From Taenia hydatigena (Eukaryota; Platyhelminthes; Cestoda; Cyclophyllidea; Taeniidae): 64,000 nt of DNA. Positions 1 through 56,459 of this stretch are shown here, one piece after another (the first letter of the stretch is position 1; the number at the start of each line of letters is the position of its first letter). The position numbers and the translations under genes were made by a program. The notes below the pieces were generated by a model. The model was not told the DNA's origin and searched no databases. It saw only the letters and a list, made by a program, of their open reading frames with translations. The stretch is from contig JADWOT020001311.1 of assembly GCA_036345935.2 (NCBI GenBank), positions 124,001 to 188,000 on the forward strand. The letters run 5' to 3'.

Positions 1-195
1 TGAGCCACCAACATTCACAACTGAGCTGTCTCCTCTGGATAGCTGTCAACCAGTAAGGGTCTCACTGAGACTCCTCTAGTAAAATGGACACCTGGTTGGG
101 CGGTCGGTAGGATCCCGACCATGCAAACACATGTCCAATTCGAAGCATGCCATGGTTCCGGTTTCCAATCATTAATCATTAATAGCTTGAACGAT

Positions 196-1760: not shown

Positions 1761-1799
1761 TCGAAGTCGGTGTGGAAGGCGGAGCGGCACTCACGATCA

Positions 1800-7330: not shown

Positions 7331-7346
7331 GCCACACATGTGTGAC
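7331..7346. other. Left hairpin of PAL copy 2
   Basis: GCCACA and TGTGAC pair around a CATG loop with one C-A mismatch. Equivalent sites are 31920-31935 and 44276-44291. Confidence 0.5.
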
Positions 7347-24069: not shown

Positions 24070-25120
24070 GAATAGCAGAGTCAGAACCCGTGCAGTTAAG
24101 CAGGGTAGCTAGGCCTGAACTCACAAGTTCCACTTTTTTGGCCAGGGAGAATTTGCGGATGACCACTCAAACAATCGCAAGAGCGGGATGCGACCTGGCT
24201 TCTCACTAACGTTAGTAGAGGCTATTTCTTCATCGTTCCCTCTTTCCTGCCTCTATTCATCACACCACCTTCCTTTATCTTAATCCACCACTTCCTTTCC
24301 ATAACTTCAGCTACTTATAGTCCACTAGCAGATGCCTCTCTCTGTAATGAATTGAATGCAATTTTGTGCATCAGAGCAGAGGCCAAAAGAAGCGCACATT
24401 GCGTTAATGTAATCGTCTTGATTGAATGTCTTTGCCTTAAAAGGGGTTTTGATGTTCAAGCCTTTAAAAATCTCAGATGTACCCTCAACCTGCGTATGAG
24501 ACCCAAATAGAATAGACTGAGATGGAATGCACAAAAGTTGCCTCTTCCTACCTCCCCCTTCGGACATGCCTTAACCAGATTCACCTTACTGGTGATGGGC
24601 CCTTCCGAAAAAGAGAAGAAAAGTCAAAAACAGAAGAGTGCAAAAAGACTGGTCTGATCCGCTGTCAATATAAGGCATGTATCAGGCTGCCGTGTGTTGC
24701 GATTAGCTAGTTGCCGCAGTAAAATGCTGTTATTATTCCAAGCTTTAGAATCTTAGTGATTCTTTTATGGTTATGGCAGTGAAGAGCATTCATCCTCCAC
24801 TGGTCGTCCTAATGAGGATTAAATTGCACTCCTCTGCCGTCTTTATCGCCTTCCGAGGGCTACATCTTTTCGTTAGCCGGCATGGGAGGCAAGGATTGAC
24901 GGCCACCAGCTGAGTGTCCAAGTTGATGCAGGGTCCTTTATGTCCTTATAAATGAGGTTCTAGCGTAAAGAGGCGCGTGGTACAGGGGCTGGTTTATTTA
25001 TCAATTCTTGGGGTGTATGGAAACAGCAGAAGTTTCGACTCTCATGCAATAAATTCTTTCTTCTGTTGTATTCATTACAATTTGTTAATCCTGATTCGCT
25101 TCAGATCGTAGGCCTAATGA
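24070..25120. repeat. Family R copy 1 (direct pair)
   Basis: This repeats in direct orientation at 25.69-26.87 kb. Matching blocks include GCAGTTAAGCAGGGTAGCTA / GTAGTTAAGCAGGGTAGCAA, CACAAGTTCCACTTTT / CACAGGTTCCACTTTT, AAAAGAAGCGCACATTGCGT and GAGGTTCTAGCGTA. The 3' part also recurs at 55.49-55.85 kb. No coding frame is shared. Confidence 0.6.
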
Positions 25121-25309
25121 ATCTATTTTAAAAAATCCAAAGTTTAGGGACTTCTGACTCGCAAGGTTGCAGCACTTTTGAGAAACCCATGGGGACAGTA
25201 GACTGGTGGATGATGTATACATTCCGAGGACACACCTTGCACACCCGCAAGGTAAAATGGAGTGAGAGGATGGGTAATTGGGGGGATGGAGAGGGAGGTA
25301 GAACTGACT

Positions 25310-25689: not shown

Positions 25690-26870
25690 AATAGTTAGTT
25701 AGAAGCCGTGTAGTTAAGCAGGGTAGCAAGGCTTGGACTCACAGGTTCCACTTTTCGGCCAGAGACTTTGCGGGTGACCGATCAAACAATCACAAGACCG
25801 AGATGAGACCTGACTTTCCAATGACATTAGCAAGGGCTTTTATGTCTTCTCCCTGTTCAACTCGTCTCCTTTCTTACCTCTATTCGCCGTGCTACTTTCT
25901 TTTTTTCTTACTGCCTTCCCTCATCTTAGTCGACCCCTTTTCTTCCCTTAACTTCAGCTACTTACGGCTTGCTAGTAGTTGTCTCTCTGGGTGGTAAGTT
26001 AAACGCAAATTCAGTGCATCAAATCAGAAGCAAAAGAAGCGCGCAATGCGTTGGTGCAAAAGTCGTTGCATGATCTTTCCTCCTCAAAAAGGCTTCAACG
26101 TCCAATCAGTTGTAAATCCCTTTCACAGCTACCCTCAGACCTACGTATGAGACCCGGATGGAATATACTGGGATGGAATGCACTAAAATTGCATCTTTCT
26201 ACTTTCTTCTCTGGACATGCCCTACCAGCCTCACCTTAAAGGTAATATGTTCTGCTAAGGAAGAGAAAGGGAATTAAAAAAAACAAAAAGAATGCAAAGT
26301 CTGCTCTGATCTACTGTCAAGGTAAGGCAGAATTCAGACTACAGTATGCTGCGAATAGAAAATTACCACATTAAGATGCTATTATCATTGCCAAACTTCA
26401 TATTAGATACAGACAATTTTGGCAATCCTGTTCTGGTTATGGCATAGGCAAGCATTCACTTTGCACTAATCGTCCTAATGGGGATTGAATTGCACTTCCC
26501 TGCCATCCTCATCGCCTTCCAGGCGCTATTTCTTTTCGTTATTCGACATTAAAAGCAAGGACGGATGGATGTCAGCTGAATGTTGAAGTTGATTTACGAT
26601 CCTTTGGATCCTCATAATTGAGGTTCTAGCGTAGTGGCACGCTTCGTACAAGGCTTGGTTTACTTATCGGATTTTGAGGTGTTTGAAAACAGCAAAATTT
26701 TGACTCGCTTTCATGCAATAAAGTGTTTTTCTCTCGTAGTCATTCCAAGTTACCAAATCGTAGTATCTTCAGATCATACGCTTAAGGAATTGCATAAATT
26801 CTTATGCAAGGGTGGATGCCTCCCCTCGCCGCACTGCCGTGGCTATGCCTACGGGGCAGAAGTATACTAA
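25690..26870. repeat. Family R copy 2
   Basis: This is the direct partner of 24.07-25.12 kb, about 1.6 kb away. Its 3' part (AGGCAAGG/AGCAAGGACGGATGG onward) is also close to 55.55-55.85 kb and continues into the shared segment at 26.9-27.45 kb. Confidence 0.6.
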
Positions 26871-26899
26871 ACTATGAAGTCTTGCTGGTTAGTACAACT

Positions 26900-27460
26900 G
26901 AATCTTTGACCATCATTTGAGGAACTCTAACAAAAATTAAACAGGCCGTTCTTGACGCAAGAGTTCCACCCTGTATCAAAATAGAATAAATTGTGCTTCT
27001 TTTTTACGAATCTTGTATGGTTGATGTGGATCGTTAAATGACAAGGAAGAGGCAATGTTGCGCTGTCTTCAGAATCCGTCTTGCAGTCAATTTTAACCCT
27101 TGTTAACTGCTTTTGCTTATTGCTTTCAGGAAGGCCACAAAAACAACTGGTTTAAGTTGACAAGGTGATGTGCTTGAAATTTGCCTGATTGTACAAAATG
27201 CATCAAAAAAGGCATATTTTTGTTCTGTCAACGACAGTTTTGCCTGCAAAGGACTACATTCACTAGTCTCACGTAGACTTGTTGTCTAAACGTTATTCGA
27301 CAAAAATACCTGGCTCTTTGGATAAGTGGTTTCAATTCTACATTGCAGAATGTTCTACCCGTTGCCATCCCTGTAATTTTGCTTATTTTACATCTAGCGT
27401 TATCAACTTGTTTTCCCTATTAGGTGATGTAGATATTGAGGAATAGTGCAGCCACGAGAA
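26900..27460. repeat. Segment shared with 55.9-56.45 kb
   Basis: Shared landmarks are AAATTAAACAGGCCGTT / AAATTAAACAGGCCATT, GTTCCACCCTATGT / GTTCCACCCTGTAT and a block near 27.30. It joins family R to the inverted PAL copy in both places. Confidence 0.5.
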
Positions 27461-28360
27461 ACGCTTAAAGCAAGCTGATTATGGATTTAAATCCGCCTTG
27501 TAGACCGGTCTCGAAGTTTTGTTGAACAAACGTTGGTATTGTGGTGTGTTGAAAGCGCCGTGGGGGAAGGAGTTCTGCCTGAGAAGGCAAATGTTGAGTG
27601 GAACTTTCCTGTGCTCTTTGCGTCACCGACTGTAGATGGTGAGGCCAATAGAAGTGATTGAGATCTGCATAAAATCTGCTACACTTGTCTATTGAGTGCC
27701 TTGAATTGGGCTCGTGTTTCGTAGTTGGGATCCCACTGGCTGCCTAACCTGATGTCCATTCTGCAACTCAGAGAAGTGAACAAGAAGAGTCTCAGTGAGT
27801 TTCTAAGTCGTTTGCAGCTGGTCAGCAGAGACAGCCTGATTGTGACTCTAGGAAACTGAAGAGTTTTGGAGGCGTCAGTCTGGGGCAACTGATTGTCCCT
27901 TGTGTATCTTTTCGCTGTGAAGGCAGATCAGCGTTTGCAAACATGTTAGCTTCTAAGCAGTTAATGTCATCAGTAAAATTAAGGCACTGACTTTCCTTCT
28001 AGCAATAATACTTCCTGAGTAAAGAAAGTAGTGGTCGTTGTCACTTGAAACGGGCAAATACTTAATTGCGTCACATGCATGTGGCGCGTGCCATTAAATG
28101 GACACAAACAATCGGTTGTCCTGGCTCGTGCCACAGACACATCAATTGGGATAAGTGTGAGCGAACAGAGATAAGTTTATTAGTCTGACGGCAGTTACCT
28201 GATTCAAACCTGCAGTGTGGCGGTCGCAGAGTAGTCGATGAGAGGCACATCTTCATAGTCGAGTGCGAGATCGCATGTTTCTCTGCAGGTTGGCAAGACC
28301 AAAGGACGAGACCAGTAATTGCTTAGCACATCTGCGCCCCAAATGAACCGATCATTAACC
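27460..28360 (-). repeat. PAL family copy 3, inverted
   Basis: Read on the minus strand it gives the PAL landmarks in order: the block matching 51.6 kb near 28.2 kb, the hairpin at 28071-28086, GTTTGCAAACATGTTAGC's complement near 27.94 kb, and the CTCAGAGA...GAGTCTCAGTGA block near 27.77 kb that pairs with 45.3 kb. It is collinear with the inverted copy at 56.46-57.34 kb. Confidence 0.55.
28071..28086. other. Hairpin of PAL copy 3
   Basis: GTCACAT and ATGTGGC form a 7-bp stem (one T-G pair) around a two-base GC centre. Confidence 0.55.
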
Positions 28361-30999: not shown

Positions 31000-31750
31000 C
31001 AAACAGTTAGGAAAAAAACAGCTGTTTTAAGGTCAACTCAATTTCAACTAGACGGGATTCGGTTGTCGCTTATTGGGTTGAATTTCTTAATCAGGTTTAG
31101 AGGAGAATGTACGACCACTCTCAGCAGCAAACGTTTTACTAGAGCATCGCAATATTATGTGAGCGGCGCAAAGGCATAACGTACAATTAAGCAATATGGA
31201 CTAGGGATGTGGCCAAGTACTCACAGCGAGTAGTGCATGTGACTATCTGAACATGGGAAGTGGCAAAGATCAAAGCGATTCTTTTCCTCCATGGGTTCGT
31301 TAGCTTCCATTTAAATTTCTATAAGTCGCATTATGTGGCTATGCTCTTCTGTATTTTGAAGCGCCGATATCAGCGGTGCCTCACATTAACACATTCTATT
31401 GAAGGCTAAAGCAGGGTTTGCCGAGCATTCGCAGATGAGTCAATTTTTGTGTTGTAGAATGCGTGACATCTTAGCTATTCACGCTGATGTGTTAGAAGGC
31501 TTTTAAGAGCACATTCTTGCTGTGAGAAGTCGTCTTACTTTAGGCATACTCTCTATTGTTTTTCCACTTGGCTACCCATATACAGAAAATTGTCGAGTCA
31601 AAAGCGAAGCTAGTTCTCTTATTGCTTTTTAACGGATGCGTGATTAATCTTTGCATCACGCATATGGGTGCGTGGAACAAAAAGATGAGCTGTGCCTTGA
31701 CAACCACTCGCATGGTTCGTTCTGCCGACAGACGCTTTTGCTTTTCCAAA
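31000..31750 (+). repeat. Family A copy 3, inverted
   Basis: This is the reverse complement of the 3.6-4.2 kb and 42.4-43.05 kb copies. It carries the GYGQ exon near 31.13-31.25 kb, then the KIVESKAKLVLLLL frame near 31.58-31.62 kb, then after a shift LHHAYGCVEQKDELCLDNHS near 31.65-31.71 kb. The frameshift and stops show decay. Confidence 0.55.
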
Positions 31751-31849
31751 CATATTTCTTTCCTTCTTCTCTACACATTCCAATCCAATTCGCAACAGCA
31801 ACACGGAGTCGCTGACAATCTCCAAACTGCATCTGCTATGCTTAATCGA

Positions 31850-33000
31850 CTATGCCCTGTACAGCCCTTACGAGCATTGAGCATCATTGCCTGCTATCAC
31901 AAACTGATATATCTCACATGTCACACATGCGAGACGTGCGGGCTGAAACGGAGCAATCAGGGCAGGACATGTGATGATGGTAGCCTGATTCCAAAAATGG
32001 ATCACAGTTAAGGCAAGCTTGTAAGAACCTGATAATCAACGCTGAAATTTTATTTTTATTCTCGACGAAGAACACCACCCGATTGTGGGATCCTCTTGGC
32101 TCTTTGATGCCATACATACCTTAATAGAGTGGTCTGCTTCCTCAGCTTACAAACTCGTTAATAACAGAGTACCCTGATCTAGCTGGCTTAAGATTAAGAC
32201 TATAGGTATATTGGGATCGTCGAATCGGCAGATTGATGGACAGTGAGAAGGTCTGACGCAATAGTGGCGTATAGAGTATATACTCACGATGTGTTGTCCT
32301 TCTCACTTTGATTGAAGCAGTTTTGCAACTAATGACTAGCTTAAGCCTTAAAAATATGGATGAACCTTACAAATTGGACCATTTCTTTGACTTTCAAGGC
32401 CAAACAGTTATCAGTTTGCCAAATTGCGCTCCCAGATTTGTATGCTCCCTCACTCACGTGGGGATTTAATCACTCCTTGTTCCACATGTGAAACCCGTGG
32501 AGGCGCAGCAGGAGTATCTAAAAGCTCTTTTTCACGTGGCATAAATTAGTACTGGTTTTACTTAATCAAAGGGGTGCTAATGTGGGAAGTAGATGGCAGT
32601 GCGTCTTCACATCAAGCCGCGCTTATTTCATCCACCCTATTTGTAGAGCTGCTGTAAAATTCATGATCGCCTGTTTCAAAATACAAAGGGAGCGGACATT
32701 CACTAGTGCCGTCTTTAGGCGGTGCCACCTGAACGGAGCTGCACTCTGCAGAGAACCAAGTAATCTCACACTGGAATGCGAAGGTGTGCTTCTGAGTGAA
32801 CAATCCACAGCCTCCACACTTCAGCCTGGTTCCTTTTAATGTTATCAGTTATCAGTTAATGCGTCTATAGCAGGAGCCAGCACGATCGGTCGTTCTTGAA
32901 GCTGGTCTACAAGGTGGATCTTGATTCATGGTAAGTACATGAGCTGCTCAAGCACTCTTGTCTGCTTCGTACGTCGGTCTTGCCTCTACTCTGGACTTGA
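31850..33000 (+). repeat. PAL family copy 4
   Basis: This is collinear with 44.2-45.4 kb. It has an ATTGCCTGCTATCACAAACT block, an eroded left hairpin at 31920-31935, GCAATCAGGGCAGGACATG, GTTAAGGCAAGCTTGTAAGA, GAAGAACACCACC, then GTGCTAATGTGGGAAGTAGA at 32574. The right hairpin is not recognisable. Confidence 0.6.
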
Positions 33001-33544
33001 ACTCTTGTAAAGTACCCCCGCATCAAACTGCTAAGCAAGATAAACAAATGAAAAGGAAGCTAATCAAATTTATTAGAAAACTTCTAGAATAAAGACATAC
33101 AAAGCACTTTGTAGTATGAATTGATTTGGCCACACAAAAGGGACACACTTTGCCGTCAAATACCCTTTGGGCAACAATTAGAGATGCTGCCTTCGGTAAC
33201 AGTTTTATGCTGGTGTAAATAGCGCTTAAGGCATAGTGATATGCTTTGTTTAATTCATATTGCGCAAGCAGGCACATTTCGAACGCACTTGCATGTCCTC
33301 TCGAAACTGTTTGTTATGTGGCCCTTCTGAAAAGCACTAAGCGGCAACGGCCGGTCAGAATTCTACAATAGATTCAACTGCAAAACAGATCATAAAGGTG
33401 GCGCACCATTGCATTTGTCTCGTATTCTACGACTTGCTTCAGTCCTACAGAATTTATCACGGGAAGCACGAGGTTCGGACGCAAACAGGGCAATTTAGGT
33501 GTTGGTGATTTATTTCCACGTAAACTAGGGTTGCACTGCTTAAT

Positions 33545-34913
33545 TTCTTATCCGGAGTTTCTCCAATGATGGTCACCGTTCTGGTTGTGCGTCCCAGCAG
33601 GATTTCTTGATGCAGTAAACTTCTTTCTCGTACGCTTCACCTTGTATTACGGCGATAAAATGCGTCCGCCCTCACAAAGGACCTAATGATAATTATTGCG
33701 TGGACGATCGGACGTGGTTCGAAACAAAAGGCTTAAAAAAGCATAGTGGAGATACACACTCATTGCATGGAAATAATAGCGAACAAATCTCTCTCATATT
33801 GAAACGCGTCAAAACCTGGCAAATGAACTAATCCATGTGCTTTGTGTCTCCGTGAGTTAGAACATCGAGTATAAGGGCCCCGAAGGACCAAACTTCGACT
33901 CAAATATTCCGTTGATAGCCACTTATCATTGCCTTCAGTGTCAAAGAAGCTAAAATGCGATAAAGACGGCAAGAAGAATGCAATCCTTCATGCAATCCCT
34001 AAAGCTGACTGATAATTTCTAATGGTGAGCATTTAAGGACCGCATTATATAAATGAATGGAATTTTAAATAAAATCAGGAATTTCGGTCCGTTTTAAATC
34101 AGTGAGCCTCAAATAGCCACTTCTGTTAACCATAAATCTCAAGATACATCGCGGCCATCACGACTTAGACGCCCAGCTAAACAAAAAGAGGTTGAGTCCA
34201 TTATTGCTGATGAACTCGTTCGTACCGTTGAGACATGTTTTCCCATTGGCAAAGCGCACGTTATCAATGGTGCTGTTAAAGGCTTTATAGTTTATAAATC
34301 ATTGTGAAATTCGTTTGCCGGTTCTGGTCGTAGAGATGATAAGCGCGTCCGAAGTAGCCGGCCAATGATCGCAAGCCTGGACGTGTCAGAGTCACTTAGG
34401 GCGAAATGGATTGTGTGAGAAGCGTGCTCGTCGATTAGTCTGAAATGGTTGGTTTATCTTTTTAAGTGATTTTCTTCCTGCCTCTCTTCTATGGGTAATA
34501 AAAAGCAACTAAGTGGCAGACAAAGCCTAAAACTGAATCTTATTCAGCCAGATGTTCTATTCGCGAAGTCTGTGGTGTACGATGCCACATGTTTTGCTAT
34601 AAGGGACAAGTAGTTTTGTTAGGTAAAGCGAAAGTGCACAAGGATGGGAGAACGACAGTGGGCAACAACATGCAAATAAATTTCATGTAGTCCAGTTGGC
34701 ATCCCTCAGCAATCTTGAGGTAGTCCCGAAGGGCACCGTCAGCCACGAAGTCATTGACAATGAAGACTTTATTGCCATGCGCCACCAGAGGCAAAATGGA
34801 TTGATGCAAAAGTCTTGGCGTTGTTCATCTCACCTCTGGATAGGCTTTAACATTTCTCTATTGTCATCTTAATCCTGCGGATAAAAATTGGATAGACTGC
34901 ACCAAAGTCGACC
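33545..34913 (-). pseudogene. Decayed protein tyrosine kinase gene, KIN copy 2
   Basis: Kinase subdomains appear in order on the minus strand. 34860-34913: DFGAVYPIFIRRIKMTIEK (glycine loop, beta-3). 34597-34809: LHQSILPLVAHGNKVFIVND, FVADGALRDYLKIAEG and QLDYMKFICML (hinge to helix E). 34090-34165: a broken catalytic loop (RD, then RFMVNRSGYLRLTDL). 33850-33930: KWLSTE, a frame shift, then VWSFGALILDVLTHGDTKHM (subdomains VIII-IX). 33545-33625: EVYCIKKSCWDAQPER, a TGA, then PSLEKLR (subdomain XI). Gaps between blocks suit introns. At least two in-frame stops and two or more shifts make it non-functional. The tyrosine kinase class is inferred from the hinge and the C-W-x-x-x-P-E block. Confidence 0.8.
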
Positions 34914-34919
34914 CTTACT

Positions 34920-36400
34920 ATCATTTTCTCCAATCTTACCTCCCCCCAACGGATGAAAGGATCCACCCTACGTATACATGCCTAAACCAAACTGACCCCA
35001 CAGGTGAGAAAGAGAAAGAAATTGAATAAGGAAAAATCCAGGTCATCGACTGTTGCTACAGGTAGATGACTGAAGCGCGATGCCAAAATCATGCCAAGCT
35101 TTGTGATTTTGACAGCAGCGAACCCTTATCCTGCACAACTCGATTTGATGAGGGTTGAAGCAGTCATTTTAAAAGTTAAAGGGAGAGACATAAAGTTGGT
35201 AAGGCAATTGAGGAGACCACTATCTTACAAATGGTATCGACACTCCGCCAACCAGGATTCACATAGTCATGGCAAGACCTACAACAGGAAAGCATTGCTG
35301 AAATAACAAGTTAGATGAATGCCTGTGCCCATCCTGGACCCATTAAAAAGTAATCCTCTTTCAGGTGAATTAAACTTGGAGCGATTTGTCTAAAAATTGA
35401 ATCAAAATGAAGGGTTCCCCTAAAGCCGACTGAAATGTACGAATGAGCAGACTTATAATCATTTGATGTCATCAAGGGCGGGTGATAGTGCATATGAGTG
35501 GATCCTCAGTACACGAACCACCATGGAAATGTTACAAATCAGAGGGCGGCAAGGCATGCAGGAATGGGTGGACATGGAATTTAACTGCACAGAGTAGTGG
35601 ATGGGAAGATGAGTACTGGGGAAGTAAATCATTATCAGCAGTGCAAAGACTGCATTGGTCCCACATGCACCCGTCAACACTCCAACAGCCGAATGCTGGC
35701 TGCAAACATGAGGCATGATGTCCTAGTCAGGCGATTGGTGCTGCTGGAGATGGGTATCCTAGCACTCACCCCATTTGCCATCCCCAGATCAGCCACTTCA
35801 TCTCCACTTAGGCAGGAGGAGTAGTGCTGCTGACAAGCTATTGAGCAAAAGCGCAAAATATTTATATCATTCTGATTATCCATGCAATGTTTCATGCCAC
35901 CAACTCAAGCGCATTTGTCGTTAACTGTGGTGACTGCTGGCGCAAGGACTCTTCGCGATTGACTCAGTTCAACCAATCGCCACGCAACCCATTTGGTGCA
36001 CACCCACCTTTTATCGGCTCTTGGGTGGTACGATCCGCATCAGGTGTGATGGAGGCGCCTTTGGAGACAAGAATGCATCCCATTACCACAAGCCTCTAAT
36101 TCACAGTTTCCTTGACGTCAAAGCCTGTTTCGAAGGCTTTCCCCCAATTACGATTGCATACAGCTTCACCCTTCCTCTCATTCGTCGGCGGCTGCACACT
36201 CGAGGGAATGAAGCACTGGGTAGACTCCTGCGTGAACAGGTTTGTAGGTGATGACTGGTGTGCGCAGATGTGGCAGCCCTATATAGATTTGTGGAAGACG
36301 CAAAGCAGCGCTGTAGACTCGTCAGTGTACTGACTCCTGACTGGTAATGCTCTGATGCCTGTGTGAACTAAGTAGTGAGTTGCAAATGTCTTGTTGCCTT
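34920..36400 (-). repeat. KIN copy 2, upstream segments
   Basis: This is collinear with 47.65-48.8 kb. On the minus strand AHSYISVGFRGTLHFDSI (35396-35449) matches AHSPISIGFEGNFLFDSI at 47685-47738, which suggests another decayed exon 5' of the kinase domain. The last part (36.1-36.4 kb) also recurs at 41.0-41.3 kb. Confidence 0.55.
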
Positions 36401-36419
36401 GGTATCGCCCTTTGTATTT

Positions 36420-39030
36420 TCTCCGCTGTCCACACATGGATGGTTGAGTATGGAGTCAATACCGAAGAGTCGTTTCACTGCCAAATTCTTGATCAAACAC
36501 CATGCTATGTAGCCGCGTTGCCCTTTGAAACCTAAGGTAGCATTTTCATTCCGTGTGTTTTTTTTTAATAGGCAACAATAAGCAGTCTGGTTCTTTCTTG
36601 CTCTAGTAGATAAATTTGATTCAAAGTAGACATTCAACTGGAATATATTCAAAGTAAGAATGCTAAGAAATTAGTAGGTAGGTGATCAGCGATAGAGACA
36701 ACTTTTAAAGATTACGGTTTCTTCCCAGCTATTGTACAATACCTCTTGATCATTTCGATCTTGCCCTTAATTAGTGACTGCTTATGTGTGTGCACTTGTT
36801 ACATTTTAATCGAGTTTTCATCCTCGCATGCATCTGCAACATGCCATTTCGCGTTTATTGATAGCACATGAAAGAGATTCCAAAGTTGGTGGGTCATTGA
36901 TGGAAGCATACGCATAACCGGGAGACGACTTGGTGTTTTGTGTTCCTGCAAGGTGAAAGCGAGAAGAGATGAATACTGGTGGTCGGCGGTCCCGAAATCA
37001 AGATCAAACGTCGCAATCAAATATCGAACCATGCGCGAAGTCGTCGAGCAACGGCGCTCAATGTACTCGACCACTGGTTGTGCCACCCTCAGCAAATTCG
37101 TGGGGTAAAACGAATATGCACTACTAACCCAACCTCCTGCTTTCCACTACTTCGATCTATGCATTGCAGAAATTGAGCTCACTCTAGCAAGTCCTATTCA
37201 TTTTACCGGGATTTCCCTACCAAAATTAGCTGTTGATGAGAAGCCTCAACCGTGAGCTCATGTGGGTTACTGGATGCTTTAGTGAGCAGGTCGAGGCTTG
37301 AAGAAGAGCTACAACATTGGAAAGGTTAAGGGATTTGTAGACGGTAATTAGGAGATTCCAGCAAGGACCACAACTAAGTCATCAGTCCTCATTGCTGGAA
37401 CCACTGCATTGCAGTCAACAGTAGGCCTTCTAATCCTGTCGACGTTTCCTCACCTTCCACCTCTTCTTTAACTGAACTTGTAAACACTTCTTCCATTCAT
37501 GATACTGTAATAAGATGACAAAAAACTGTAGAAAAATTGGCTTTGAAGGGTTGCACAAGATTTTGCAAGTGTTTTCTTTTAACGTGACGTCAATCAGTGT
37601 GACGCGTGGTGGTAAAATGTGGTGACGGTCGTGTCTGCGGCTCCTTTGTTCACAGATGGCCTGACGTTAGGAGCGAATCTCACTGACGCGGATTGCACAC
37701 TGACGATCAGTGCGCAACTCCTGTGTTAGATCCACGCAACTGAATCCAATGGAATTGAATGCTGATGTTGGTGATGTTTTAACCACCTGCTAGCGCCTCC
37801 TGTTAAAGAACGCTATCGCTTAACCCCACGTGTCCAATACACGTTTCCTACTAGGCGACGATTAAGACGGCTGTTTATTTACACCCGGCTTGCCTCTGTC
37901 TACAGTTCAAGCAGCATCGCAGGTCATTTTTGCATGCCTGAAGCACTGAAAATGCTCCAATTTTCGGCTTGTACGTAGCAACCCAGAGAGTCTAGACGTG
38001 ATGGGCCCTTGCTCTGCCAATCGCTTGAGTATCGCTTTATTTTCCTACTGATTAGGCCTTGCTGAAGGTGTCAGTGGTGGCGATTTTATGCCACCCCGAA
38101 TTCTGCCCAGTTTTAAGGCCATGTGTCTTACAGAAACCTCGAGTAGCTGTTGCTCCCCTAATGCATTCTACCTGCTATTCCTCTGTGAATTTGCCTTTGA
38201 TTTTTCGCCTTAGGTGCACCATCGCCAAGTGATAGCTCTACTCTCTACAGCTACCAACACGAGTAACACCGACGCTAGCCACATTTTCTACGTCAAAGTG
38301 ACGTTTTCAAGTAACCTCCAAGGTTGTTCCCTCAATAAGGGTAAAAGGGCCTTAAAAAATTGTGGACGGCTGTTATGAACACTCAACACTTCCCAACTAT
38401 ATTTTCGTGCAACCCCTCTTTTGTTCTGAATGGACATTGGGCAAAAAGGAACAATTCGTTTACTCCTCAGGCATGCTCGCTTTGCAATGGAAAGCAGTAG
38501 TGGACAAATTCGTCGCTACCATGTGGCCACCTACTGAAGCAATTGAGGTGCATCCACACTCCCGAATCGCCTGTTAAAATGGGTGGCAGCCAGAAATTGG
38601 GTTAAAAATCGCATTTATAACTCCACAGATCTTAACAGCCCTCAAGAACACACCAACGAGGCAAGTCCGTAGCATTTCACGTTAGCTTGGCTAGGTGTTG
38701 GCCAACAAATTGTCCATCCAGAGGTAAGGAATACAAACTTAATCGTAGCTTCCTCCTAAAAATTCCTCCAGTTGGTTAGAACTGTCCCATTCACCTGAAT
38801 CACCTAAGCTCTCACTCATTCAGTCACATGCTTCTTTCAAAAATTTTGCCAGCAAAATCTAGCAAAGTGGAAGCGGTGGACCAAAGTGAATGCAGACTCT
38901 GCAACATACACGTAAGACAAACAAAAAGGTTGAATTAGGTGCAATGTGCATATCTATTTAGAACGCACACAAATGCGTTGACAACAGGCAAAAGAAGACG
39001 CAAAGGTGGTGAAGTATATAAAATCATCGT
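36420..39030. other. No gene seen
   Basis: Short frames at 36368-36652, 36799-37095 and 38362-38577 have no recognised domains. No repeat partner was found with confidence. This stretch lies directly 3' (minus-strand sense) of the Hsp70 pseudogene. Confidence 0.3.
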
Positions 39031-41859: not shown

Positions 41860-43250
41860 TGCATGACTTTGCATCACTTTAGAAAATAGGTGAACATTAA
41901 CGAACCTTGCTGTTACTAGCCCGATTTGATCCACACTGTTAAAAGTCTTTTTCAAATGTAACAACTCGATGCAGATAATGTGGATGTGTTAATTTGCATT
42001 AATGTCCGATACTGTGGACATTTCAAGCAGCCGCTAACGCACTTAATAGAAACAGGGACACAGTCACCACTCTCAGTAAAAGCGCAGTTCTTCGCAAAAG
42101 TGCTGCAACCTGTCAATGGAGAGTGTTTAACGTGGTGGTAAGGCGGATTGATGGTTCTCTTACAACTCGGGCAATCTGAAGGCAACTTAAAAGACGGCAA
42201 AGCGAATGTCAGTGTCGATTTATCACGCAATATCTGACTCTAGCTTAGTTACTACACAATAATGGTTATGAGGAGTGAAGTGAGGATGTGTCTCTTCCAG
42301 TTAGTCGTCGTTAACTATCTGCCTGACTACTGCGATCAGCATTCACTTTAACCTGCCGTACCGTTAAATTTGACCTAGACGACTGATACTCAGCTGGTGG
42401 TACGAAAGAATCAGCTGTGTGGTAGCGGCCCCAATGTGCGTGATGGGCAAGGCACAGCTCATCCCATTGTACCACGCATCCATATGCGTGACGCAAAGGT
42501 TCATCCTAAACTTGATGTCTAAGCAATAAGAGAACTAGCTTCTCTTTTGACTTGACTACTTCCTGCTTATGGGTAGCCAAATGGAAATAGAAAAGGAACT
42601 TTGCTTAAAGTAAAACGATTTCAGAGAGCAAGAATATACTTTAAAAGTCTTCATTAAAAGCCAATATGAAAAGCTGGGATGCCATGTATTCTACAGTATG
42701 AATTGGCGCATCTGAAAATGCTCGATAGGCCTTACTTTAGCCTTCAATGTGATCCGCTAATCGAAAACACCGCTGCTATCGACACTTTAAAATACAGAAT
42801 AGCAGAACCACTTAATGCGGCTTTTTGAAATTTTAATGGAAACTAACGAATCCATAAATGGAAAGAATTGCTTCTTTCCCTTTAACACTTTGCATGCTTA
42901 GGAAGTCACATGCACTTTGCGCTGTGACTACTTGGCCATATCCTGAGTCCATATTGTCGCATTACACGCTATGCCTTTGCGCTGCTACCAGAATACTGCG
43001 GTGGCTCAAACAAACGTTTGCAGATCAATCTGGTAAAGACTATTGTAAAATACCACCACAATTGTGAGTCAATGGATGTTGAATGCTTCGACCAGTTAAA
43101 AAAGGAAGGTATAGCAGTAAGGTGAGCAGAACCCACCAACAGTCGCCAATTGTCTGCGCTTGGTTATAACAGCAATTCCAGAATTACCCACTATTGTTAC
43201 TTGCAAGGTGAGTGATGTTTATCCAACAAGACCCGTGGGTACTATTTAAG
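41860..43250 (-). repeat. Family A copy 4 (longest)
   Basis: This copy spans both halves seen separately elsewhere. Minus-strand frames are: the GYGQ exon at about 42.89-43.02 kb, RHAYGCVVQWDELCLAHHAH at about 42.42-42.49 kb, and a cysteine-rich frame at 41952-42230 (ALPSFKLPSDCPSCKRTINP, then TFAKNCAFTESGDCVPVSIK). The cysteine-rich frame is still open here, but the relative at 18.97-19.24 kb has stops. I do not recognise the protein. Confidence 0.6.
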
Positions 43251-43919: not shown

Positions 43920-44199
43920 AATAATTGAGACAAACTACGATATAATTTCTACAAACGCTTTTATTTTATGATTCTTTTAATGTTATTTTGACTTTTGCCT
44001 ATAAAACGACCCACTTTGTTTGCTTTTTTAATCCCTATATTAACTCTAAAAGGCAAAAGAAAACAGATCTGTTTGAGCGTATGGGTATAGAGGCATTCGA
44101 ATTGCCTTTAGAAACTATGTAAGCGCTCTGGCATTGCAGAACCATTTGGTTACTTGTGTTCCCTCTCGTTGTGGAAAAAGATCCATGTTTGCAACCGCA

Positions 44200-45700
44200 T
44201 TAGCCTCAAAAAATTACGCACATATAATTTAACAACAATGACATTCTTTTTTTTGTTATGGCTTGTATCCCACATGTCACGCATGTGTGACGTGCGACAT
44301 CTTGCAGGCAATCAGGGCATGACATGTAATGCTGGAAGCGTAATTTCAATAATTAATCGCAGTCAAGGCAAGCTTGTAAGAACCTGATACAAAAGGTCTA
44401 AACTTCAGTCTAGTTCTTCAAGAAGAACACCACCACTCAGTGGGATCCTCCTGGTCCTGAGATGCCTCGCACACCTCAATGGAGTGGTCTACTCTCTCCA
44501 TCCACAACCTCGTCTTTAGTATAGCACTTTGATCCGAATGACTTGAATAGGAGACTAGAGGTCGACTGAGATCGTTGGATCAGCATATTGAAGGGCGGTG
44601 AGAAGGTTGGCTGGGATGTTGGCGTTTAGAGGATATACTGGGAATGTCGCGTCCATCTCACTTCGTTTGAGGCAGTTGTGTGACTATTGAATGGTTTAGG
44701 CCCCAGAAATATGGAAGAACTTTACAGTGTGAATCATCTTTTACTTATAATGGTAAAAATATTTATGAGCTTGCCCAATCGCGTCCCCTGACTTGCATGC
44801 CTCCTCACTCGTGTGGGCATTCAATCACTCCTTCTCCCACTTGCGATACCCGTGGAGGCGTAACAGGGCTACCTAAAGGCTCATTTGGCATACTTTTAAC
44901 TTATGGTGTTTTATTTAAAAATGTGCTAATGTGGAAAGTTGATGGCAGTGCGAGTTTCATCCAGCAACGTTTGTTCCATTCACCTCCTCTGTAGATCATG
45001 GCCGGTTCCTTTCAGCCAGAGATGAGGTGATTGTTCACCAACCTTGTCCTCTGGCAGCGCCACCGGGTTGGAACTCAGCTTTTGCTGATCTCAATTAATG
45101 CAAATTATTTGGCAATTCCACCACGAAACGATACGTGAATAAGTAAACGGTTTGGCGATGCCAGGTTGCTTTCCAGTTATTGAACGTTGCTTAGAATGCA
45201 TGAGTAACCCAAAACCTAAATATAATTATTCAGTGCTGGCACTTTCAAATATGTCAGAGGTCAGTGCCATTGCATGTCATTTCGCGCCACTGAAGCGTCT
45301 CAGACACTGTAGCTCAAAATTGGCCGTCTCCTCTGACCAGCTGTCAGCCACTCTGGATTCACTGAGACTCCTTTTGCGCATTTCTCTGTGTTGTGGAACG
45401 AGTATCTGGTTAGGCGGTCGGTGAGGTCTTGACCACGCAAGTATATGCGCAAATCAAAGCAGTAGGTGATGATAATTTCTAGTCGAGGGCACCATAAAAC
45501 TGGAACTACCACGTGGTCATCACGTGAGGTGAATGGAGAGGGTAGTCTTGATGTAGATCGCAGTCGCCTTCGCTCTAGCCAACCATCTGCAGACGGAATT
45601 GCAATGAGCGTAAGAAATTTGCACTCAATATTTTGCTTTCTCCGACAACATTTCTTTCTCCACCGCGCTTCCAATAAAGAAGGCTCTGTTCTGAATATGA
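44200..45700 (+). repeat. PAL family copy 5
   Basis: This copy has the left hairpin at 44276-44291, GCAATCAGGGCATGACATG, GTCAAGGCAAGCTTGTAAGA, GTGCTAATGTGGAAAGTTGA near 44922, then the CTCCTCTGACCAGCTGTCAG block near 45330, the tRNA-like TCTGGTTAGGCGGTCGG stretch near 45405 and a CACGTGGTCATCACGTGAGG block near 45510. The right hairpin is missing. Confidence 0.6.
44276..44291. other. Left hairpin of PAL copy 5
   Basis: GTCACG and TGTGAC pair around a CATG loop with one G-T pair. Confidence 0.55.
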
Positions 45701-46168
45701 ACACTTGTGGAGTACGTCTGCACCAAAATTGCTAAGCAAGGGAAAGCAATCACAAACGAAAAATTCAAAATTTATTGGGGAATCACTTAAATAGGAACAT
45801 AGGGGATACTTGGCAATGTGAATCGAATAGGTCTTATGAAAGTGTCACGTTTCCTGTAAAATACCTTTGAAGACATAATAATATGCTTTCCTTGATTCAT
45901 ATTGTTAGGCAGGCACATTACAACCACATTTACTAGCCAACTCAAACCTGCTTTTTATGGCTCTACGAAAAAGCGATGAGGAGCGACGACCGAAGGGGAG
46001 GTCGGAATTCCGCAATGGAGTCAAGCCCAAAACAGATTACAGAGGCAGTGCACCATTGCATTTTCCTGTTATTTTACGACCTGCCTCAGCTCCACAGAAT
46101 TTATTAAGAGAAGCACGAGATGAATTTGGCATCAGTCTTTCATTTTCACGTAAATTAGAGTTCCTTAA

Positions 46169-47648
46169 ATGATGGTCGCTTTTAGGCTGTGCGTTCCAGC
46201 AGGATTTCATGGTGCAGTAAAATTCTACCTCACGCGCATTAGCTAAGGTATTGCGCCGATGGGAGGCATCCGCCCTCACAATAGAACTCATGCACTTCAT
46301 TACGCGCATGATTAAGAGTGGTTTTGCCTGAGAAGCTTAAAGAAGGAATGTAACAAAAAAAATAAACTTATTGTATGGGAACACACAGAAACCTCTGCTG
46401 CTGGCAAACATTTCAATATCTGGCAAATGAACCAATCCTTGTGCGTTGTGTCTCCGTTAGTTTGAACCTTTGATCATAAGGATCCCGAAGGTTCAGAATT
46501 TGGCTTTTATCTTCGGCTGATAGCCATCCATCATTGTCTCTAAAGAAGCTTAAAAGCGATAGAGATGTCATAAAAATGTATTTCATTTTCCATCGCATAA
46601 CGGTGACATGTGGGCCCTTTTATGATGAGCATCTTAGGACCGCATCGAACTCAAATTTAGTAAAATGGGAAATAAAATGAAGAAGTTTGTTCCATATGAA
46701 GTCAGTGAGCCTTACACGGCCTCTTCTGTCTACCATGACTCTCTAGACACACCGCAGACATCACGACCTAGACGCCCAGCTAAACGAAAATTTCATCAGT
46801 TTATTGTTGCTGACCGATTGAAAAACTTCTTTCTACCATTTGCTTAACTTCATTTTTAATGCTAAAATCCTTTCCAGTCGCCATTGTAGTGCCGCTAAAG
46901 GCTTCTTAACACAAAACCGGTATAAAAGGCATTTGCCGCTTCCTGCATCAAAGAGAATTCAATAAATATGAGCATTTTATTTCACTGGTAGTAAATAGTA
47001 AGTGACTGTGCCGTAGATGACAAAATCTTTCATCTCGGGTAGTCGTGACAGCTTGGGCCAGCAGAGGTGAGATGGTAAAGTAGCTCTAGTCGATGGGTTT
47101 GTGGACGTGTCTGAAACAACACGGCGATGAACGCACGCCGGGATGGGTCAGAGTGGCTTTGAGTAAAATGGGTTGCGTGAAAAGAATGCTCGTCGATTAG
47201 TCAAAAAGGTTGGTTCATCTAACCCTATGGTTTTCTTCCCGCTTTTCTTCTGAGAGCATTAATAAGTAAATGAATTGCGGTCAAGGCCTTAAAGTGGATC
47301 TTATGCAGCCAGATGTCCTAGTCATCAAGTCTATGGCGTATCTTACTGCCTGCTCTGCCGTGAGAGACGACTTATTTTTCAGGGAGGAGAGATAGTGCAA
47401 AAGGATGAGGGAGAAGGACAGTGGGCAACAACATGTAAATAAGCTTCATGCAGTCCAGATGGCATCACTAAGCAGTCCTCAGGCAGTCTCGATGTGGACC
47501 GTTGGCCATGAACTCGTTGGCAATGAGGACTCTATCGTTATGCAAAAGTTTTGCAGCATCCATTCCACCTCAACGCTTGGTCTATTAAAAATTGTTTCAC
47601 CATCACATTTATCCAGCGTATGAAGCCCAGGTAGATTACACCGGGATC
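46169..47648 (-). pseudogene. Decayed protein tyrosine kinase gene, KIN copy 3
   Basis: The blocks follow the order of KIN copy 2. Near 47590-47648: DPGVIYLGFIRWINVMVKQF (glycine loop region). Near 47405-47560: RVLIANEFMANGPHRDCLRT, two stops, then CHLDCMKLIYML. Near 46690-46766: RVMVDRRGRVRLTDF (catalytic loop to DFG, with I in place of the G). Near 46450-46550: GWLSAE, a shift, then FGILM. Near 46169-46235: TMKSCWNAQPKSD (subdomain XI). Several stops and shifts are present. Spacing between blocks parallels copy 2 within about 200 bases, which argues for one duplicated multi-exon gene. Confidence 0.75.
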
Positions 47649-47649
47649 G

Positions 47650-48800
47650 AATCACGTCCTCCACTGGATGGCAACTCGTCGAGAATTGAGTCAAAGAGGA
47701 AATTCCCTTCAAAGCCAATCGAAATGGGTGAATGAGCTGACCTATAGCGATTAAAGAGTCAACAAGAGCGGGCGATAGCATAAATGACTGAATCCTCAAT
47801 ATACGAACAGCTACGGAAATGTGTCGAATTGGAGGGCAGAAAGGCATGCAGAAATGTATAAGCGTGGAATGTAACAAAGGAAGCCAACGTTAGGAGGGAG
47901 AGGGATATAAGCTTACAAATAACTAGGCTGGTTTGTGGATAGGAAGGTGAGGAATGGAGAAAGAACTCACCATCAACAGCGAGATTACTGCATTTGCCGA
48001 CAGCAGTCTCAAATTCAGGGAGGCACTTGCACTCCCCAACACTCCAACAACTGAATGCTGAACGCAAACATGAGGCATGTATTCGTGCTGGTGACACGAA
48101 CGCAAGCACTAATCCCACTTGCCTTCACCAGATCTGGCAGTTCTTATCCAGTTAGGCAGGAGGAATGGTGCTACTGGCAAGATACTGCTAAAACATATCA
48201 TGTTCATGTGATCCGCTTGAACACTTTTGCAGTTTTTATGTGGTGACTGCTGATGCAAGGACTCCATGCGGTTGGCTCCGTTTAGCCAACCAACACGCGA
48301 CTCGTCTGGTGCTAACTTACACCTTTCACCTGCTCTTCGGCGGCTCCACCCCATCGGGGTGTGACAGAGGTGCATTCGGAGATGAAGGGCGGCAATTGTA
48401 GTGGAAAAATGCAATACATTACCACAAGATCCAAATCACAGTTTCTTTGACGTCTACGTATTCTTAGTTATGCCGATTGTGATTAAGCCCTGAGCTGCGC
48501 CAATCACATAACACGTGCTTATTGGAAGGCATTCATCCAACCACAATTTGTCACAGCTTCAAGCCTCCTCGCATTTGTTCGCGACTGCACACTCGAGGGA
48601 ATGACGCACCACGCAGACTCCAGTGTGAACAGGTAGGTAGGCGATTACTGGTGTGAGCAGAGGTGACAGCTCCATACTGACGTGTGGGTGGCACAAATGC
48701 AGCGCTGTAGTAGTACCAATGTATTGATGATTGACTGACAGTATTTTGATGCCTGTAGTGTATTAGGAGTGTTCATTTCGGCGACCCTATGTCGCCTTGA
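47650..48800 (-). repeat. KIN copy 3, upstream segments
   Basis: Partner of 35.35-36.4 kb. It includes the FDSI pseudo-exon (47685-47738) and a GCTGTTGATG|GTGAGT junction near 47.97 kb on the minus strand, which matches the one near 0.65 kb. Confidence 0.5.
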
Positions 48801-48899
48801 CTATAGAAAGAATAATTTTGTAAAATTGCATAAGCCACTCCGTGTGTTTTCTTTCGATGCTAAGTGGTAATTCTCATTTAGATGGGAATTAAAATCGAG

Positions 48900-49270
48900 T
48901 AACAAGCTGTGAAGGACCCTAAGAATTGCTGTAATTTATCAAACGTACAACACCTCCAATCACAACCTCATCATTCACACCCTGAATCAAAACTACTCAT
49001 CACTGCCTTGTGTGTGAGTCCCTCAAAAACTTAGACTGCGAGTTGTGGGAGATTAGGTACTTGTCTTAATAACTCAGTAGCTTGTCAATTTCATCTCGAT
49101 TGTCAGTTGAGTTTTAATCATTTCTTGACTTGGATGCTGTCGAACCGATTGCATCATGGTTTTCTCACTTGTAATGATGTTCATTTCGTCGGGATTTGTG
49201 CACCGCATTCGCTTTACATCGGTGCTCATTTTTAGTCCATATTCTGACATTAATCTACGAAGCATTTATT
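48900..49270 (+). repeat. Repeat Q1 copy 2
   Basis: Direct partner of 10.34-10.76 kb. The two copies are about 38 kb apart. Confidence 0.6.
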
Positions 49271-50079: not shown

Positions 50080-51370
50080 GACAATCTCTAGCAAGTATCC
50101 AACATGCTATCCTAACAATAATTTGCATGGGCCTAATGAGCGTAGTAGTATGATTGCCAGCTATCAAAAATTGTTGCTTTTCGCATTGATTCAAAAGAAC
50201 TTTACTATATAGACTAAGTCCTTTACTTCTAAGGCATGCCATTCCATACACATGGTTATTTGATTACTCTTTCTTCCATTTGTAGAACTAATGAGCCACA
50301 GAAGGCATACTTAGATGACCCATCATGCATGTTTTACATTAACCTTGTTGTTAATCAAAGATGTGCTAATGTGGAAAATGGATGGCAGTGCGACCTTCCG
50401 TTCAGCCGCATATATTCTACGCACCCGCTCTGCAGAGGCTCTGTATTGTCCGTAACCAAAGCCTTTGGGGCATAGGGGAGCAGTGTCCACTGATCTCGTC
50501 TCGCAGCCGTTCCAATAGGGCGCAACCACTAGCTGCATTGAAAAATGTAACCTCGCATTTGCACAGGAAAGTGTGCTTCCCAGCGACCACACTACAGTCG
50601 CTACACCGCAAACTAGGTGTTCGTTCGCTTATCTGGAGCTGTTGCCATGCGCTTGTGGCACGAGCAAGCATAGCCGATCGTTCATGCCTGATAAATTTCC
50701 CATGCCACATAAATGTGGCGCAACTGAGTAATTATCTATTGCAAGTGGCAACAACCGCTAACTATAAAGATTTATTAAAATTATGGCAAGAAGGAAAAGT
50801 CACTACCATTTAGTAAAACAAAATGCTTGCTGATGTGCTTGCAAATATGAATCTGTTCTCACCGCCAAAAGAAGCGCAAGTGCCAAATGGTTCAACAATT
50901 CTAGGGAGCTTACAAAGTTTCCAAAGACGACTTAAATGCCTCTATAATATAAAACCCATAAAGATTTTATTTAGGGATGACAACTTTTTAGAAGGTCAGA
51001 GATCTTTACCAATGCACGTCATCAAGTAGACTTTCTTCCCTTGTCAGCTCTCAACCACCAGGGCACCCAATGCGACTCATTTCGCCTGCTCCTCTGTGTA
51101 GTGGTATGGGTATCTGTTTAGACGAACAGAGAAGGCTTAACCACTCAAACATATGCTAATTCGAATCAGCTGGTGATGTCGAATTCTATTAATCGACTCC
51201 GTAGGGCTTAAACTACCACTCGAGTATCACTTGAGGTGAGTGGAGATGGTAACCTTGATGTGGATCACAGTCGCCTCCTCAGGCAACTCGCCTACTTCTA
51301 CTGCTATTCCAACAACACGCTACTTTGCCAACAGCTCTTCGCCGCGACTTCAAGCATTTAAATGTTTCTC
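50080..51370 (+). repeat. PAL family copy 6
   Basis: In order: a GATTGCCAGCTATCAAAAAT block, GATGTGCTAATGTGGAAAAT at 50360, CCCAGCGACCACACTACAGT near 50579, the right hairpin at 50704-50719, the CCTCTGTGTAGTGGTATGGG block near 51093, and the CACTTGAGGTGAGTGGAGAT to CAGTCGCC block near 51228-51275. The left hairpin is lost. It is followed closely by copy 7. Confidence 0.6.
50704..50719. other. Right hairpin of PAL copy 6, with paired change
   Basis: GCCACAT and ATGTGGC form a perfect 7-bp stem around AA. Relative to the GTCACA/TGTGAC copies, the second pair is changed on both sides (T-A to C-G). Confidence 0.6.
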
Positions 51371-51399
51371 GTTCCTTGTTCTAAATTAACCTGCTTTTA

Positions 51400-52100
51400 A
51401 TTAACCAAAGGTGTGTTGATGCGGAAAATAGACGTCAGTGCGACCTCGCATCAAGCCCTGTTCGCTTCACTCACCCTCTCTGTAGAGCCGCTGCAAAGAT
51501 ATTAACCGAATCCTTTAGGGCACAAAAGAGCTAGGTGCTCACTGGTCTTGACCTCTAGTTATGTCACTGACACCAAAATACAGACAGCAGTGAATTTGGT
51601 GATCTCGCATTCAGCTGCCAAGTTGTGCCTCCCAGTGACCAGTCCACGGCCACCACACATCAAGTTGGATTCAGGCCACCGTCACCTTTCTAATAGGCTT
51701 ATCACTTCCTTGCTTGCTTTTTTTGATCTCATTCAATGCATTCGAGGTTCAAGTCGGCATAACAGGTCGTCCTTGCCTAATGAATGATCCGTGTCACACA
51801 TACGTGACGCAACGGAATGATTGAACATTTTAAATGACAAAAGCCTCTAGTTTTAAAAATCTTTCAACACTACAGCAACAAAACAGCGTTGTTTTTACTT
51901 TGTTAAAATTGTTGCCTGCTTAGAAGCCAACGTGCTTGCGAATGTTGATTTGTATTGTCGACGTAGAAATGTTTAATGTCAAACATTTTGCTCAATCGAA
52001 AATAAACCATTGCAAATATTTTGCGTTTAGCTTTGCACAAAAAGCTTTGTTGTATTTGAATGCACTTGATGTGACCTGCAATATATTCTCCTCTACTCAA
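51400..52100 (+). repeat. PAL family copy 7 (partial, in tandem with copy 6)
   Basis: It starts at the GGTGTGTTGATGCGGAAAAT block (51408), carries the ACCAGTCCACGGCCACCACA block (51638), the hairpin at 51791-51810 and TTAGAAGCCAACGTGCTTGC near 51920. It lacks the left hairpin region. Confidence 0.6.
51791..51810. other. Hairpin of PAL copy 7
   Basis: GTCAC and GTGAC pair around a six-base ACATAC loop. Confidence 0.5.
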
Positions 52101-54537: not shown

Positions 54538-54544
54538 GCAACGA

Positions 54545-54675: not shown

Positions 54676-54739
54676 TTTCAACTGGCCACAGTATTCGGTA
54701 TCCATTGACTTATGTTTGTAACAGCACTTTGCAACATTC

Positions 54740-55469: not shown

Positions 55470-56450
55470 TTTTTCACCGGTAGTCTTAATGGGAATTGAA
55501 TTGCGTTCCTCCGCCATCTTCATCACCTCCCAGGTGCTACTTCTTTTTGATGCTCGGCATCAGAGGCAAGGATGGATGGCTATTAGCTGATTGTTAAAGA
55601 TGATGTACTGTCCTTCGAATCCTTGTGCTTGAGCTCCTGGAATATGGAGACATGTCGAACAGAAGGTGGCTCGTTTGGCAAATTTTGAGGTGTTTGGTAA
55701 TGGAAGAATTTTTGACTTGCATTCACCCAATATATTTATTTTCCCGTTGCATTCATTCGAAGTTATTAATTTCAAATCGCTTTAGGTAGTAGGCCTAATG
55801 AGCTGCATAAATTCCTTTGCGAAGATGGATGCCTCCTCTCGGTGCGAAATCACGGCTACGCCTGTAAGGAAGAATTTTACTGCACTATTAAAGCGCACCG
55901 GCTAGTACAACTGAAACGTTGACCGTCATGTGAGGAACTGTGGCGAGAAATTAAACAGGCCATTTTTGACACAACCGTTCCACCCTATGTTAAAGGGAAA
56001 TAAATTGCTGTTACCTAATCCGCCTTTTTATGCGTCCAAAACATGTGATTTACTTTTATAAATCTTGTAAGGCTGGTGTGGATCGTAAGATGACAAGCGA
56101 ACGCACCGTCTTTAAAATCCGTTTTGGAGTCAAATCAATTTAGCGATTTCCACCTCCTCTTCGACCTCTTCAACTTATTTCTATCAGTAGGACCACAAAG
56201 CCAAAAGGTTTGGGTTGGCAAGGTGATTTTTTTAATATGCCTGACTGTACAAAAGGTTGCACTCACTGACCTTTTATCGACTTGTCGTCTGAGCGATCTT
56301 TGACAGAAACACCTAGTCCCTTGATAAGGTGTTCCGCACATTGCTACCCTTGTAATTTTATTAATGCAGAGTGCAGCATTATCAAGCTGATTTTTTTGCC
56401 TTGTGACGTAAATATGAAGGCACTTTGCATGCGTTCATACCCACAGTATA
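55470..56450. repeat. Family R copy 3 and following shared segment
   Basis: Partner of 26.47-27.45 kb. It begins with AATGGGAATTGAATTGCG (compare AATGGGGATTGAATTGCA near 26.48 kb). Confidence 0.6.
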
Positions 56451-56459
56451 GCCAGGAGA

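Follow-up and report, generated by a model that had tools for sequence, protein, structure and literature searches.

The feature under study, copy A, is very probably (we would put the probability at about 0.87) one of many pseudogene copies that derive from a cytoplasmic tyrosine kinase of the Src-like kind, have kept its introns and lie in blocks of DNA that were copied when the gene inside them was already dead. Relics of three kinase exons stand in order on one strand of A, related relics are found on many contigs, and within each of several types of copy the same stops recur. It would be a frame-broken gene, in each of these types, that was multiplied, as their shared lesions indicate.

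Sequence material and searches

The window, that is, the whole stretch of 64,000 nucleotides that was analysed, corresponds to C529:124001-188000 in its own assembly (306,030,797 bases in 1354 contigs) and has a GC-content of 41-47% per 2 kb. The genome of Taenia hydatigena is described as 309 Mb long with 43.0% GC and as 63% repetitive, unclassified repeats making up 46.68% (PMC8384839).

Our reference for kinase relics was a set of four exons from L029, a Src-like kinase gene found elsewhere in this genome (C4:20612100-20614300; 2.2 kb of the live gene was covered), which were compared with the window by tblastn with the low-complexity filter and the composition correction both off. A frameshift- and intron-tolerant aligner was run on both strands of the window; its query was a tyrosine kinase (TK) consensus. 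Pieces of the repeated unit were located by nhmmer with a profile of copies A and B, which at E<=0.01 picked out 26 pieces, with A and B among them.

Relics of a tyrosine kinase in copy A

A sequence-only reading of positions 33545-34913 had named six strings as the ordered blocks of a tyrosine kinase. All six lie on the minus strand there in the order given, and four of them (subdomain I, the hinge, subdomain IX and subdomain XI) are relics of one tyrosine kinase, spread over 33555-34957 and recovered by tblastn with the live exons (Table 1). The exon-1 match comes in two pieces, 34957-34853, which holds DFGAVYPIFIRR, and 34812-34666, which holds the hinge, and VWSFGALILDVLTHGD falls inside the exon-3 match. 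The remaining two strings fared less well. KWLSTE, a misreading of subdomain VIII, is off frame and reads as a chance string, the true exon frame KAMISGYQRNI*VEVWSFG aligning with EAMQRTDYRPNTKADVWSFG of the live gene. The catalytic-loop string RFMVNRSGYLRLTDL produced no row at E<=10 against L029 exon 2, and the corresponding stretch of copy B gave a weak match (E 0.061). A shared frame break between subdomains VIII and IX, once taken as proof of a dead founder, was withdrawn because it rested on the off-frame KWLSTE.

The exon-1 and exon-3 relics of A are separated by 748 nt and the exon-3 and exon-4 relics by 195 nt, and the AG of the candidate intron that follows exon 1 is retained in A and C and altered in B. 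A processed pseudogene would have lost its introns; A has intron-like stretches between its exon relics together with disabling changes (stops and frame changes), as non-processed pseudogenes do. The earlier proposal of a multi-exon gene copied with its introns, and since decayed, is borne out in these respects.

Table 1. Kinase-derived units, exon relics and an accompanying repeat, in positions of the window.
Feature	Position	Strand	Basis
Copy A, decayed kinase unit with exons, introns and flanks	31702..36597	- (coding sense)	nhmmer, A+B profile
Copy A exon-1 relic, subdomain I to hinge	34666..34957	-	tblastn, L029 exon 1, joint E 1.4e-8
Candidate 73-nt GT-AG intron after copy A exon-1 relic	34597..34669	-	read from sequence, inferred
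Copy A exon-3 relic, subdomain IX VEVWSFGALILDVLTHG, internal stop	33837..33917	-	tblastn, E 3.7e-6
Copy A exon-4 relic, subdomain XI, SCWDAQPER	33555..33641	-	tblastn, E 2.7e-5
Copy B	44057..48998	-	nhmmer
Copy C	1112..3396	-	nhmmer
Copy D	26478..27880	+	nhmmer
Copy F	55472..56882	+	nhmmer
Copy G, DNA-level fragment, subfamily of D and F	24798..25122	+	nhmmer
Additional exon-1 fragment	26015..26077	-	tblastn, E 0.04
Additional unit fragment, upstream side	24466..24823	-	nhmmer, E 1.1e-9
Partial copy at window edge, two pieces	20..757	-	nhmmer
Unit flank fragment, downstream side of kinase	7291..7895	-	nhmmer
Unit flank fragments, two overlapping sets	50234..51661	-	nhmmer
Module X, second repeat near kinase copies	42287..43226	.	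309 genome candidate places; 40/40 scored match

The frameshift-tolerant scan placed its best score in the whole 64 kb, 100.8, at 33555-34815 on the minus strand, against shuffle maxima of 70.1 (49 shuffled windows) and 83.9 (60 shuffled queries). Under two stricter settings the best place was 33555-33896, again on the minus strand, with scores of 80.2 and 73.3 over shuffle maxima of 56.6 (n=54) and 51.0 (n=51). The runner-up on the minus strand was copy B (46158-47826, score 75.6), which rose above the shuffles in one of three whole-window settings and was at shuffle level under both stricter ones. When regions were scanned singly, the score was reached by none of 100 shuffles for A or B, by 2 for D, 15 for C, 30 for G and 73 for F; in six antisense controls it was reached by 26 to 84 per 100 (83 for A's antisense). 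With cheap jumps the scan did not set A apart: it scored 177, against a shuffle mean of 158 and a maximum of 186.5 in 100 shuffles. Scans of 26 of 27 loci sampled elsewhere in the genome (L026 being omitted for its Ns) seemed to offer a second kinase locus in L011 (scores 82 and 80), which was rejected as an artefact of a run of Ns; the next sampled locus scored 70.7.

A kinase HMM had been named as the check on the hinge and the later blocks, and tblastn with live exons did match the hinge, IX and XI, while Pfam found no kinase in six single pieces of A; the curated PF07714 score was reached by exons of the live gene and by none of these six pieces. Searches of the PDB with single pieces of A returned weak matches: 37 of 37 were protein kinases for one piece (best E 0.13), the best 60 of 107 were all protein kinases for another (best E 0.011), and a third matched KIT and one guanylyl cyclase with a kinase-like domain (20 matches, best E 0.32). 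Three pieces of B and C had no PDB match, or matched only non-kinases. A profile of the exon-4 block from A, B and D had 127 PDB matches at E<=10, of which the best 60 were all tyrosine kinases (top KIT, E 0.0012), and a hinge profile from A, B and C had 83, with Lyn best at E 0.096 and 57 tyrosine kinases and three others among the best 60. Protein database searches with the window's kinase stretches found nothing.

Further copies in the window

Copies A and B share 65.7% identity across 4192 ungapped columns. In B, tblastn matched exon 1 in two pieces, 47642-47580 and 47533-47474, with a joint E of 1.7e-4; exon 2 was matched at 46739-46680 (E 0.061) and exon 3 at 46522-46469 (E 0.074). Copy C has an exon-1 relic at 3163-2894 with two TAA stops, which matches the live gene (tblastn E 1.5e-17, 43% across 92 residues). 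The exon-4 relic of D (26787-26927, tblastn E 1e-8) was found in the genome search as C529:150784-150936; that of F (55800-55964, tblastn E 0.011) is where all the kinase signal of F lies. Copy G is 72% identical to D and 65% to F, and is without a kinase signal of its own. The tblastn strands, minus for A, B and C and plus for D and F, agree with those demanded by the DNA alignments.

Module X appears in the window at 3465-4422, 18897-19736, 31110-31713, 41884-43226 and 54472-54733, adjoining several of the kinase copies. The best-kept repeat pair in the window is another one, 17582-17923 and 54655-55044 on the minus strand (82% identical as DNA, and 69% as protein over 71 residues); it has no Pfam match over cut-off and is perhaps an exon of another decayed gene. 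A nearly full-length, frame-broken HSP70 gene occupies 39044-40913 on the minus strand. Among 120 matches listed of 7988, Taenia asiatica reaches up to 77% identity to it, followed by Echinococcus at up to 75%, and joined plant and animal entries stand above the taeniids by E-value. ARAGORN, with the bacterial code, placed a tRNA-Cys (anticodon aca) at 9015-9093 on the minus strand; Rfam at gathering threshold had no match in the window, this tRNA included, and Tandem Repeats Finder at score 50 found no repeat there.

Live relatives and the family across the genome

A PF07714 search of the assembly gave 161 matches to kinases of all kinds, including multi-exon genes on C3 and C4. The intact-looking relatives of the copies, one at C4:20.61 Mb and several on C3, have open exons with HRD, DFG and APE, and are presumably functional. 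The one at C4, L029, reads as an intact-looking Src-like kinase gene: its open exons carry HRDLRAAN, DFG, FPFRWTAPEA and ADVWSFG and score 72.9 bits with PF07714, and its exon 1 matches 864 PDB sequences at E<=0.001 (best LCK, 1.1e-15), the best 60 of these comprising kinases of Src, Tec and Csk type (LCK, FGR, LYN, ITK, BTK, CSK), a reconstructed Src-Abl ancestor and unspecified tyrosine kinases. With a Src-like live relative, the idea of an insulin-receptor-like origin was dropped, and the earlier naming of A as a tyrosine kinase is upheld by the exon matches in Table 1. Some of the live Src-like exons lie near contig ends (both ends of C3, and C4:20.3-20.65 Mb) and others elsewhere. Some live exons form opposite-strand pairs whose scores are the same (C3:1816 with 85784; C4:20613601 with 20648008) or almost so (C3:23497174 with 23510955).

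In exon-1 DNA the live genes are 54-66% identical to the dead copies, against 70-78% among four live paralogs, so none of these live genes is the direct parent of the dead copies. The earlier suggestion to look for an intact parent and further copies was therefore fruitful for intact-looking relatives and for copies, and fell short of the parent itself. A tree of 29 exon-1 sequences places all 24 dead ones in a single clade with a UFBoot of 100, which sits within the live paralogs; its placement next to live C3:22.79 has a support of just 68, and the stretch 25990-26180 of the window falls inside the dead clade.

The copies do form a repeat family of this genome, as had been supposed. Searched as protein against the whole genome, L029 exon 1 had 181 candidates, of which 150 were scored, and gave at least 150 matches with E<=1; exon 4 had 212 candidates, of which 150 were scored, and gave at least 150 matches, live genes included in both cases; in the exon-1 list rows 1-10 are stop-free and rows 11-33 have 1-4 stops each. 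At the DNA level a 994-base piece of A had at least 43 matches (40 of 120 candidates scored) and a 1381-base piece of C at least 41 (40 of 82 candidates scored). Eighteen of the latter, the window included, are essentially full length at 91-100%, and the 17 apart from the window are spread across 13 contigs at 91-98%. Copies sit on many contigs, C1, C2, C7, C8, C9 and C10 among them, and are concentrated on unplaced contigs and in certain stretches of chromosomes. None of 27 sampled 10-kb loci had a copy, which indicates a patchy family; a purely local cluster, as first read from that sample, was withdrawn after the whole-genome search. Some contigs are nearly identical (C308 is 99-100% alike to the window, the C833 pair is identical and C435 equals copy C in exon 1); such rows may stand for haplotypes that were left uncollapsed, or for contigs that are palindromic, and independent copies are fewer than rows.

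Decay before copying

The order of events can be approached through lesions that copies have in common. In the exon 1 of C type, both TAA stops and a 6-nt deletion are common to 11 of 11 aligned copies of 92-100% identity, the set being the window copy and 10 of the 17 other rows marked as having two TAA; two additional C-type rows, on C1039, have one TAA each instead of two. A second type has a TGA and a TAG in seven of seven copies. The A type (A, C308, C749, two on C833, and C729) has a TAG in six of six, a stop preceding VEVWSFG in six of six (TAA in C729, TGA in the other five) and, in five of six, a TGA preceding PSL. These stops are absent from B and the C2 type, and hence arose after A and B had split.

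Variation between copies gives a similar indication. Counted by codon position, the variable columns of the C type are 14/14/14 (of 88 each) and those of the second type 18/17/18 (of 63); they number 11/12/14 of 78 in four A-type copies and 14/12/9 of about 73 in four C2-type copies, against 42/32/75 of 113 (p 3.7e-5) in four live paralogs. Between A and B the figures are 21/20/16 of about 75, and 31% of positions differ outside these exon stretches. The shared stops and deletion, with no codon signal inside a type, argue that decay preceded copying for these types. Some deeper pairs do have more variable columns at the third position, namely live C4 against C (33/27/47 of 92), C against A (25/37/39 of about 80) and live C3 against A (32/33/49 of about 97); C against C731 is without such an excess (27/22/27 of 63). 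Some excess between the deeper branches means that the earliest history may have been partly functional. The sequence-only reading had the gene copied and then decayed: both did happen, and the order appears largely reversed for the C, second and A types, which share their stops.

Carriers of the relics

A second kind of repeat also holds kinase sequence. A 2-kb repeat, represented by L061 and separate from the unit in the window, has 408 candidate places in the genome, of which 40 were scored; these copies, the query included, are 92-100% identical over 1.7-2.0 kb (92-97% among those other than the query), occur in both orientations and lie, in 35 of the 40 cases, on C3:1.0-12.8 Mb, and two extra short rows were found at 85-87%. 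A kinase exon-4 match overlaps 39 of the 40. Two members on C3, L061 and L062, are 94% alike across 2 kb and each holds GGRLPSPLNEGFEC..SIMSSC, and the exon 4 of L063, on C2, is more complete (54.7%, E 8e-17; Pfam 16.5 bits, under the cut-off of 23.1). On C1 divergent kinase relics stand in six pairs, with 12-13.4 kb between the two members, and both ends of one pair were read; L059 and L060, at C1:16105300-16118500, form such a divergent decayed pair about 12 kb apart. Module X shares contigs with kinase copies (C308, C23, C909, C435, C804, C10 and others).

We propose that a paralog of the live C4/C3 kinase family would have lost its frame, after which larger blocks of DNA holding the dead gene were copied repeatedly, in both orientations, and went on decaying as noncoding sequence. 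Three dead types at the least (that of window copy C, that of window copy A and the TGA/TAG type) would each have been a source of further copies, and the different 2-kb repeat carries a relic of exon 4 from this kinase family. The dead kinase would most likely be a passive rider in these blocks, whose vehicle may have been segmental duplication or a non-autonomous mobile element.

Alternative explanations

A more active role for the vehicle is possible, though we consider it rather doubtful: the kinase relics may have been captured by a transposable element that spread them, the exons being passengers. The repeats are interspersed and multi-copy, as transposable elements are, and both the 2-kb stretch, with its 408 candidate places, two orientations and nearly constant overlap with exon 4, and the six divergent pairs on C1, which suggest a recurring unit, would suit such a capture. 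Set against it, Pfam found no transposase, reverse transcriptase or integrase in 22 ORFs of the window (a part of all, three of them HSP70) and no transposition protein in seven ORFs covering part of the L061 and L063 units, where a non-autonomous element would have none in any case; nor was any DNA similarity at E<=1e-3 found between the window and L061-L063. Local tandem duplication, with each copy then decaying on its own where it lay, might be recommended by the presence of several copies within 64 kb in both orientations and the absence of A's stops from B. It is very improbable in view of the spread over many contigs and over C1, C2, C7, C8, C9 and C10 and the equal codon positions within types, and it is contradicted by the stops shared within types.

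The least credible account, to which we give next to no weight, is that the motifs are chance matches in unrelated decayed repeats. It can point to the silence of Pfam on six pieces of A, to KWLSTE and to one control. A segment of the opposite strand is kept in A (33349-33471, plus) and B (45996-46118, plus) with 63% protein identity, and a control profile built from it reached E 1.5e-9 to designed ankyrin proteins by summing weak repeats, probably a chance match by way of a short string, so that short profiles are able to mislead. Chance is contradicted by the match of C to a live-looking gene at E 1.5e-17 and by three exons in order in A, and none of 100 shuffles reached the score of A or that of B.

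We return to copies of an already dead gene as the preferred reading. It would supply an origin for some of the repeats of a large, repeat-rich taeniid genome, and would show that dead genes, when they lie in blocks that duplicate, can come to outnumber their live relatives; the live kinases, several of them on C3 and C4, are themselves a candidate for studies of gene-family expansion in tapeworms. Going further, and as a speculation that we think unlikely to hold in full, dead Src-like kinase genes may have been taken up by two or more replicating units that are unrelated (the window type, found on unplaced contigs and C1; the 2-kb repeat, found on C3), so that one family would make up a sizeable share of the 'unknown' repeats and might still give rise to antisense or small RNA directed at the live kinases.

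Comparison with known systems

In taeniids, a subtelomeric expansion of hsp70-like genes, including a transcribed hsp70 pseudogene, has been described (PMC4413821). The kinase repeats resemble it in host family and as a gene family that has grown and partly decayed, with a broken HSP70 gene present in the window as well, and differ in the gene family involved; as to a subtelomeric placing, six loci 30-40 kb from contig ends had no kinase copy. Like the unclassified repeats of T. hydatigena described in PMC8384839, the kinase repeats have no transposable-element domain in the ORFs scanned, and the passages of that paper on unclassified repeats do not state what they derive from. Literature searches restricted to openly licensed papers listed no report of kinase-derived repeats in tapeworms.

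Gene-capturing transposons such as Pack-MULEs and Helitrons are likewise dispersed repeats that carry pieces of host exons; in the repeats described here no transposase was found among the scanned ORFs. Non-processed (duplicated) pseudogenes in segmental duplications are a known kind, and the copies resemble them in keeping their introns, in their stops and frameshifts, in having live relatives and in belonging to larger blocks. They differ from the usual duplicated pseudogenes in their number, well over a hundred matches, and in that dead types appear to have served as sources of more copies. The kind is thus a familiar one, that of amplified duplicated pseudogenes, and what sets this case apart is its scale, that dead types were apparently used as sources more than once, and that an exon of the kinase family occurs in two unrelated repeats.
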